Source: Acidobacteriota bacterium | GTDB lineage: Bacteria > Acidobacteriota > Terriglobia > Bryobacterales > Bryobacteraceae | DNA length: 6,299 nt | Reading direction: 5' to 3' | Assembly (NCBI GenBank): GCA_947505565.1 | Contig: CANNLB010000180.1 | Location: 1 to 6,299, forward strand | Part shown: positions 4,160-5,692 of the stretch, piece after piece | Numbering within the stretch: position 1 is the first letter of the stretch | Layout of the letters: each line of letters opens with the position of its first letter | Notes under the pieces: generated by a model | Told to the model about the DNA's origin: nothing | The model's input: the letters and a program-made list of their open reading frames with translations, nothing else | Databases searched by the model: none | Position numbers and translations under genes: made by a program

Positions 4160-4591
4160 ATGATTGCGGTATCCAGGAACAACGAATCCATTCCCACGAT
4201 GGAGGAAAAACGAGCCGCCGTCGACGAGATCGTCTCCAGTCAAACCCTCGGCCGCTCCGACCAACTCAAAGCGTTTCTTCACTTCGTCTGCGAATCCGAA
4301 ATAAACGGCAGCGGGGCCGAGCTGAATGAATACTTAATCGGCGTGCAAGTTCTTGGTCGCCCAGAGGGCTACTCAACCTCGGACGACGCCACCGTCCGCA
4401 CTCGCGCCCACGCCCGTATGGCCCGAAAACTCGATCCGCCGCATCCCAAGTTCAACCAAGGGTTACATCTCCGTCCGAAACTTCGGGATGTGCGAGTCGG
4501 CGAGTGCCCCGGAAACTCCACGGATCAAACAGGAGACGCCAAAATCGTGGACACGGCGCATACCTCCGGCGCGCCAGCCGTTCATGACTGA
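4160..4591 (+). pseudogene. N-terminal domain of an acidobacterial-type regulator, interrupted after codon 85
   Basis: The ORF would encode 143 residues, but only residues ~15-85 look like a protein family: SDQLKAFLHFVCESEI, ELNEYLIGVQVLGRPEGY and DDATVRTRAHA. This matches the conserved N-terminal domain that I recall from many large acidobacterial winged-helix or sensor-like regulators (pattern FLRYVCE...EYLIG.EVLGR...D..VR.RAH.LR.KL...Y...LPKGSY). The expected continuation LRxKLxxxY...LPKGSYxPxF is missing. Family likeness ends at Ala85 (4412-4414), and the next base, 4415, is the first base of a 22-bp inverted repeat. Residues 86-143 are therefore encoded by the inserted element, not by the original gene. 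The start at 4160 has no clear Shine-Dalgarno; ATG 4199 is an alternative with none either. It follows the receptor stop by 30 bp, so it may have been a receptor-linked regulator. A genuine short protein cannot be ruled out. Confidence 0.6.
4415..4436 (+). repeat. Left copy of 22-bp perfect inverted repeat
   Basis: It begins cgtatggcccgaaaactcg and ends atc at 4436. The exact reverse complement is at 4768-4789. The match stops sharply on both sides: outward bases (gcc versus aggcct read in reverse) and inward bases (cgccgc versus tatctg) do not agree. A 22-base match within 400 bp is not expected by chance. Confidence 0.93.
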
Positions 4592-4648
4592 TGCCAGCGT
4601 GGCTGCGGTCATGACTGCGTGGCTTGATCGGGCGGGTGAGGTCGGCCA

Positions 4649-4714
4649 TTGCTGGTTCATCCAGACCGCCAGAGAGATCAGCAGAAAGCGGAACGGGTCC
4701 AGGCACTTCGACAT
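4649..4714 (-). pseudogene. Transposase N-terminal fragment (integrase-core/DDE type), about 22 codons
   Basis: On the minus strand from ATG 4714-4712 the translation begins MSK and then CLDPFRFLLISLAVWMNQQ. From memory this matches the opening of integrase-core (rve, DDE) transposases that are frequent in Acidobacteria and often start xLDPFRFLLIxLAGWMNQ followed by an EENRVLREQLG helix. That helix does not follow here: after the second Gln (4649) the sequence becomes WPTSPARSS, unlike the family, though the frame stays open to 4463. The fragment is thus a 5' remnant joined to unrelated or decayed DNA inside the 375-bp element. It encodes no catalytic residue. Its position next to the right inverted repeat fits the 5' end of a former IS. 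The family name is recalled, not searched. Confidence 0.5.
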
Positions 4715-4767
4715 CGGGTCGTCTCATTATCGACGACGCCAGGGATTATCTCCCGCTGTTTCAGATA

Positions 4768-4789
4768 GATCGAGTTTTCGGGCCATACG
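4768..4789 (-). repeat. Right copy of 22-bp perfect inverted repeat
   Basis: It reads gatcgagttttcgggccat and then acg on the + strand, the exact reverse complement of 4415-4436. It lies 53 bp upstream of the minus-strand transposase-like ATG (4712-4714), a usual distance between an IS end and its transposase start. Confidence 0.93.
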
Positions 4790-4846
4790 AGGAAGCCTAG
4801 GTCCGCAACCGGCAGCAGAACCCCGACGCCCTCACCGAGCCCCCCG

Positions 4847-5692
4847 CTACTGCGCTTTGTTCAGAATCTCCCCGTACAACTCCGGCCGCCGCCGTTCGAG
4901 CAGGTCCCGCCGCCGCTTCCCCGGATTCACCCGCCCCAGCACCACCTGGTCCTGTTCGCCCTGATTGGCGGCCACCACCTTCCCGCCCGGGTCGATAATC
5001 AGGCACCGCCGCGGATGCACAAACGCCAGCCACACCCCGTTCTCGTAGGCCCGCACCCGCATCATCATGTCATTCATCTCGCCATAGGAGCCCCACGCCG
5101 GCACCAGCAGAAACTGCGCCCCCTTCAACGCCAGAATCCGCGCCGGCTCCGTCATCTGCCGGTCGTAGCAGATCAGCGTCCCCCACCGTCCGAACCGCGT
5201 CGTCACCACGGGAAAGCTGGTGCCCTTGGTGTTGAACGGTTCGTCATCCGCAGTATGGCTCTTCGAGTAGTGGGCCGCCAACTCTCCCTCGGGCGAGAAG
5301 ACGGCGACCGAGTTAAACATCTCCTCCCCGCGTCGCTCGGCAAAACCGATCGAGAGATAGATCTTCAACTCCCGCGCCAGCCCCGCGATGCGCCCGAGCA
5401 GCGGACCATCGATCCGTTCACCGGCAGCCAGATACCGCTCCCGCGTCAATCCCGGCGTCCGCTTCTCGTTGCCCACGTAGCCCTCAAGAAAACCTTCGGG
5501 CGAGATCACCACCTGCGCTCCCCGCCCCGCGGCCTCCCGCGTGTACCGTTCCAGTTTCTGATAATTGCCCTCTTTGTTCCAGGGCTCCGGCATCACACTC
5601 AGCCCGGCCACGACAAACGACCCGCCCGCCGGCGGCGGAGCCGCCACCACCGTCCCGGCCACGAAAAGAGAAACGAACCAACGAAGCACCAT
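4847..5692 (-). CDS. Carbon-nitrogen hydrolase (nitrilase superfamily), probably exported
   Basis: A complete 281-residue protein. The nitrilase-superfamily catalytic set is present: Glu66 in VVISPEGF, Lys144 in HYSKSH, Cys175 in GTLICYDRQMTEPAR, and a further conserved Glu151 (DDEPF). RAYENGVWLAF and IIDPGGKVV are other usual family elements. Such enzymes hydrolyse amides (or N-carbamoyl groups/nitriles) through a Cys thioester; the ICYD...EP form is closer to amidase/carbamoylase branches than to true nitrilases. Residues 1-18 (MVLRWFVSLFVAGTVVAA) look like a signal peptide, followed by a Pro/Gly linker and the domain from about residue 25, so it probably acts outside the cytoplasm; a lipobox is absent. 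The ATG is supported because an in-frame TAA lies just upstream (5711-5713, minus) and a weak GGGCGGA (5699-5705) precedes it by 6 nt. It converges on the receptor block. Codons end mostly in G, the reverse of the + genes. Substrate unknown. Confidence 0.92.
   Translation of the reverse strand: MVLRWFVSLFVAGTVVAAPPPAGGSFVVAGLSVMPEPWNKEGNYQKLERYTREAAGRGAQVVISPEGFLEGYVGNEKRTPGLTRERYLAAGERIDGPLLGRIAGLARELKIYLSIGFAERRGEEMFNSVAVFSPEGELAAHYSKSHTADDEPFNTKGTSFPVVTTRFGRWGTLICYDRQMTEPARILALKGAQFLLVPAWGSYGEMNDMMMRVRAYENGVWLAFVHPRRCLIIDPGGKVVAANQGEQDQVVLGRVNPGKRRRDLLERRRPELYGEILNKAQ

Follow-up and report, generated by a model that had tools for sequence, protein, structure and literature searches.

How does a 375-bp segment with perfect inverted ends and no intact gene come to stand between a truncated reading frame and a carbon-nitrogen hydrolase gene in a member of the Acidobacteriota, and does it belong to a mobile family? 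The window, which here means the whole stretch of DNA that was analyzed (6,299 nucleotides), is the complete contig C180 of a genome assembly of 640 contigs that is 59% complete. The segment very probably represents a repeated, transposase-less element that shares its ends with an insertion sequence (IS) of approximately 1.37 kb, and it is likely to have arisen by internal loss and to have been moved in trans, in the manner of a MITE.

Borders and parts of the element

The two 22-bp arms of the inverted repeat are 100% complementary and are separated by 331 nt, while the longest perfect inverted repeat in shuffled versions of the window (n=100, dinucleotide-preserving) was of 10–15 bp. The preliminary description, which was made from the sequence alone, had claimed perfect 22-bp inverted ends, the lack of an intact gene between them and a transposase-like 5′ remnant near one end, and all three points were borne out. 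Shuffled sequences reach 15 bp at most, and no intact transposase is present inside the 375 bp, where residues 1–22 are all that is found of this protein (91% identity, E 5.1e-6). The coordinates of the features are given in Table 1.

Table 1. Features of the window at and around the 375-bp element
Feature	Position	Strand	Remarks
5′ part of the host gene, first 85 codons, cut short by the element	4160..4414	+	Intact 421-aa gene in G006:C286
MITE-like non-autonomous element, 375 bp	4415..4789	.	Dispersed repeat of this genome and its relatives; G008:C19 and G004:C161 carry the same form
Left 22-bp terminal inverted repeat (TIR), CGTATGGCCCGAAAACTCGATC	4415..4436	+	
Left segment, ~208 bp, matching the non-coding end of the full-length IS beyond its transposase stop	4415..4622	+	
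Filler at the internal joint, ~28 bp	4623..4650	.	Common to G008:C19, G004:C161 and G006:C195
Right segment, 139 bp, corresponding to the transposase-start end of the IS	4651..4789	+	
Remnant of transposase codons 1–22 (MSKCLDPFRFLLISLAVWMNQQ)	4649..4714	-	Within ORF 4463–4714, minus strand
Right 22-bp TIR	4768..4789	-	
Right flank with carbon-nitrogen hydrolase gene (4847–5692)	4794..5692	-	On another G006 contig than the left flank

The element is built of two segments, both of which can be aligned with a full-length IS copy in the related genome G006 (contig C252): the left segment is 93% identical to the left end of that copy over approximately 200 bases and the right segment is 93% identical to its last 139 bases. 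The filler between them resembles, in inverted orientation, the 3′ end of the transposase gene of a second full-length copy (G004:C92) together with the bases that follow it, and the joint is therefore not a plain deletion. On these alignments the element derives from an rve-type IS and is MITE-like. Its short form would have been made once, by an internal loss of about 1 kb that left the filler of about 28 bp at the joint, and a DDE-type IS transposase would then have bound the ends of about 20 bp and moved the short form in trans.

Copies in the own genome and in relatives

The search of the same genome returned 13 other contigs that match the 375 bp, each with one end, left or right. With the window counted there are 8 left and 7 right ends, a count that pools IS and short form and is drawn from a 59%-complete assembly. 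TIR sites with up to 3 mismatches numbered 15 against 0 for a reversed control pattern, and the immediate flanks differ among all copies of the own genome. The case that the preliminary description had named against itself, that no other copy of the ends would be found, does not apply. Eleven of the 13 contigs break off within the element or no more than 9 bases from the last matching position, and the remaining two (C276 and C291) run on; this is the pattern expected where a short-read assembler fails to resolve repeats. One of the copies, on C439, is apparently a still shorter version of the short form.

Some of these ends belong to longer elements. On contig C276 the left end is followed by IS sequence up to the end of the contig (96% to the G006:C252 copy over 369 bases), and the right ends on C195 and C196 resemble the IS more than the short form, so that full-length IS copies are likely to be present in the own genome too. 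No complete transposase gene of the parental kind is assembled in it; the closest matches there are the 22 residues of the window and, on C276, a C-terminal piece of 52 residues (75%), and four further matches are just 28–36% identical.

At least 10 of 100 relatives match the element, nine of the same genus and one of the same family, and such counts are lower bounds since at most six candidates were scored per genome. Lake Baikal and Lac Pavin are named in records of relatives. The form seen in the window recurs in other species, in line with the search in related Acidobacteria that had been proposed: a 375-bp copy is present in G008:C19 (97% identity) and a 373-bp copy in G004:C161 (94%), the filler of the latter being 2 bases shorter than that of the window, and in G006:C195 the right part with the joint is cut by the contig end. 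The flanks of these copies and of the window copy are unrelated to one another. The internal joint was found in at least 4 of 101 genomes, and the filler of about 28 bp that these short copies have in common, placed after the left 208 bp and before the right 139 bp, points to one founding event. Short forms with other breakpoints also occur, of 296 bp in stretch L116 and of 688 bp in G026:C319.

Among stretches of named genomes the TIR pattern was present in 49. In 29 of them the match to the element exceeds 24 bases; for L098 and L128 it covers just 26–34 bases. The titles of all 29 name Acidobacteria, Bryobacterales or Ca. Sulfopaludibacter. One of the remaining 20, L113 (Ca. Solibacter), matches the full-length IS.

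The left 208 bp, non-coding as they are, keep approximately 80% identity in other species, as might be expected if the segment were a conserved regulatory RNA or some other functional element of the host and not a mobile one. The element lies at different positions, has TIRs as its borders, truncates a coding gene and has full-length copies that encode a transposase, which makes a host function highly improbable.

The full-length IS and its transposase

A full-length IS with these termini, another item that the preliminary description had proposed to look for, was found with the same or related ends in two relatives. The copy in G006:C252 has 1368 bp, a transposase frame with one stop and changes in the first four bases of the left TIR; the copy in G004:C92 has 1376 bp, an intact 359-aa transposase (PF13683) and more diverged ends. 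Read in the orientation of the element, the transposase lies on the minus strand, starting near the right end and stopping about 213 bp from the left end, which is why the short form is non-coding over its left 208 bp. The dispersed ends, the recurrent 375-bp form and the full-length copies, whose ends are the same or related, together support the earlier reading of a MITE derived from an IS.

The parental transposase was compared with curated families of NCBIfam, along with ten of its 120 listed relatives, which makes 11 members in all. Its scores were 91.5 bits for IS481 (cut-off 224), 67.7 for IS3 (cut-off 160) and 46.8 for IS630 (cut-off 100), and the ten relatives gave 86.8–97.2, 66.3–80.9 and 42.8–54.3 bits, respectively. 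All 11 thus fall short of half the IS481 cut-off and attain no more than about half of the other two. Assignment of the parent to IS481, IS3 or IS630 was tried and rejected, as the equivalog cut-offs are not reached for any of the three, and the parent is accordingly not filed under these families. Judged by the protein, it would work like an rve-type DDE IS near IS481 and IS3.

The likeness to IS481 consists in the best NCBIfam match and in residues D246 and E281, which stand 35 residues apart, if they are the catalytic pair as we read them. The ends of IS481 elements start with TGT, whereas those of the present group start with CGTAWGG and show no flanking direct repeat of at least 3 bp, and all 11 members remain below half of the 224-bit cut-off. 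IS3 is the second-best match, but here too the score is under the 160-bit cut-off, no duplication of 3–5 bp was seen and the G004:C92 copy carries a single ORF of 359 codons. IS630 comes third, and differs in the 100-bit cut-off not being reached and in the absence of a TA duplication at the ends and flanks. According to one account, target duplications of IS481 are of 2–15 bp and mostly of 6 bp, and in one host the IS481EU elements have TGT...ACA termini (PMC10045372); neither the mostly 6-bp duplication nor the TGT...ACA ends, as given there, are seen in the present group. Elements that match the IS481 profile together with the IS3 and/or IS630 profiles are frequent in metagenomes, as stated in PMC3852290, and the mixed matches, being known from there, make the transposase less novel.

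The clade to which the transposase belongs is abundant, with at least 7999 protein matches to the query (L088 2217–3296). Matches at E 0.001 were obtained in 23 of 61 genomes, the own genome included, and in 70 of 297 genomes drawn from the phylum, many of them only 25–35% identical. Inverted-repeat scripts found few clear inverted-repeat ends beside transposase relatives in other genomes; CGTAWGG-like ends adjoin several transposases of 50–73% identity in a pattern scan that was taken alone, with no chance comparison. Solved structures gave no sequence match to the transposase. The element thereby points to an abundant clade, of at least 7999 matches, whose 11 tested members fall short of the curated IS family cut-offs.

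A 63-bp repeat was also seen, the start of which coincides with the right terminus of the full-length IS (L077 from 3241, which is G006:C252 from 4740). It recurs in seven contigs of G012 and in contig C17 of the own genome (G000), and may mark the border of a further sequence that is mobile or duplicated.

Host gene, target sites and possible rearrangement

The sequence of the left flank is present in G006:C286 with 99.7% identity over 300 bp, and there it forms part of an uninterrupted gene of 421 aa, which has no Pfam match. In the window this gene is truncated after codon 85, by insertion or by insertion followed by recombination. The 375 bp had been considered open to refutation as part of a syntenic coding gene, and the comparison speaks against this, since the element shortens a gene that is whole in G006:C286. 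A transposase-like reading of ORF 4160–4591 was also set aside: no Pfam match (E 0.1) and no NCBIfam match were found for it, and the frame is the start of the host gene. Close to the end of the contig (5934–6299) no convincing gene was found, just short overlapping ORFs being listed.

The right flank, from 4794 onwards, is located on contig C428 of G006 (98%) and the left flank on C286 of the same genome. In addition, the own genome bin contains the right flank in a version that lacks the element (G000:C350, positions 1–124; L168), and this second version could reflect a strain mixture or a rearrangement. Together, the separate G006 contigs and the element-free right flank indicate a rearrangement or a mis-join at the window copy: loci that are non-adjacent in G006 are joined in it, whether by rearrangement at the element, by faulty assembly or by a mixture of strains. 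For the copies in G008:C19 and G004:C161 the flanks were likewise not found contiguous in relatives; the left flank of the latter is a truncated gene that looks DNA methylase-like when judged by eye.

These flanks raise the possibility that the 375-bp copy of the window is an assembly chimera made of the halves of two repeat copies, the family itself being real. The separate location of its flanks in G006 and the element-free right flank in G000:C350 fit such an origin, as do the 640-contig, 59%-complete assembly and the fact that most copies break inside the element. Against it, the same short form with the same filler was assembled in G008 and in G004, which apparently belong to two different projects (SHUN01, Baikal, and CANIVU01, RH-18aug17), a single copy of the short form was seen in G004 (6 of 28 candidates scored), and a mis-join accounts for the flanks of the window copy and not for the element. 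A chimera deserves serious weight, and we consider it somewhat less probable than not.

Nine copies with both ends were available for direct comparison of the flanks: five short ones and four of full length, of which two come from distant genomes. In none of the nine does a direct repeat reach 3 bp. A flank match of 2 bp occurs in three of the nine, all three among the four full-length copies. A target duplication of 2 bp was nevertheless set aside, because the flanks at 29 left and 17 right ends are mirror-like, with C, and not equal. C stands two positions outside the TIR at 24 of the 29 left and 14 of the 17 right ends (46 distinct ends with the TIR pattern), and a base mirrored in this way at both ends looks like a preference at the target or an outward continuation of the TIR rather than a duplication.

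The search for empty sites covered six joined flanks in relatives and, in 8 genomes of which the own genome was one, 17 flanks of single ends. Empty sites that break sharply at the TIR were obtained, for example for C439, C450, C454, C474 and the left end of the window, and a pair in which both flanks are contiguous was found for no copy. No palindromic or fixed-length target duplication could be derived from the flank comparisons and flank searches. The comparison of empty sites, by which the preliminary description had hoped to define target duplications, was therefore successful in part: it provided empty sites for several single ends, but neither a target duplication nor a simple pair of filled and empty site.

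Both the mixed flanks and the absent target duplications would also be accounted for if the short form were barely able to move by itself and spread mainly by homologous recombination among its copies and the full-length ISs. The lack of a duplication of 3 bp or more in the nine two-ended copies is compatible with this, and so are the three two-ended copies of the 375-bp type whose flanks were not found contiguous in relatives. The sharp boundary at the TIR in the empty sites listed above is, on the other hand, the mark of an insertion, with the limit that the ends having empty sites cannot always be separated into IS and short form. Spread mainly by recombination is regarded as unlikely, and we infer that the short form moved by transposition.

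Placed beside other MITEs, the element has the same short length, the lack of an intact transposase, TIRs in common with a full-length IS, many copies and a remnant of the transposase start. It differs in that no target duplication was found and in the inverted filler of about 28 bp at the joint, which stands in place of a plain internal deletion. No MITEs of this IS group in Acidobacteria are described in the literature searched, which was that outside subscription journals and ISfinder; in PMC8841776 the term MITE occurs within a cited title on plants. The element is an ordinary kind of genetic element, a MITE-like parasite, in a little-annotated host, and is worth naming. With it, the Acidobacteria gain a family of mobile, gene-less repeats of a sort that gene-based annotation would miss, and such repeats are seen here to truncate a host gene and to coincide with contig breaks and changed gene order. 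A wider and rather doubtful proposal is that the parent represents an unnamed and very large IS group, defined by CGTAWGG ends, a 359-aa rve-type transposase and a long non-coding 3′ end, which would make no target duplication and insert at sites with C two bases outside its ends, and whose short derivatives would accumulate at points of genome rearrangement.

Two further arrangements were observed near copies of the element. At L129 7114–7176 two left ends stand 43 bp apart, as if one copy had been inserted into another copy's left end. In L078 (G008:C19), at about 2572–2766 (query 901–1095), a different dispersed repeat was noticed, which measures approximately 110–195 bp and contains TTATCAGCAACTTCGAAGTTTGCGAGAACC; it is present in many genomes of the same genus and on several contigs of the own genome, and it sometimes adjoins the present element.
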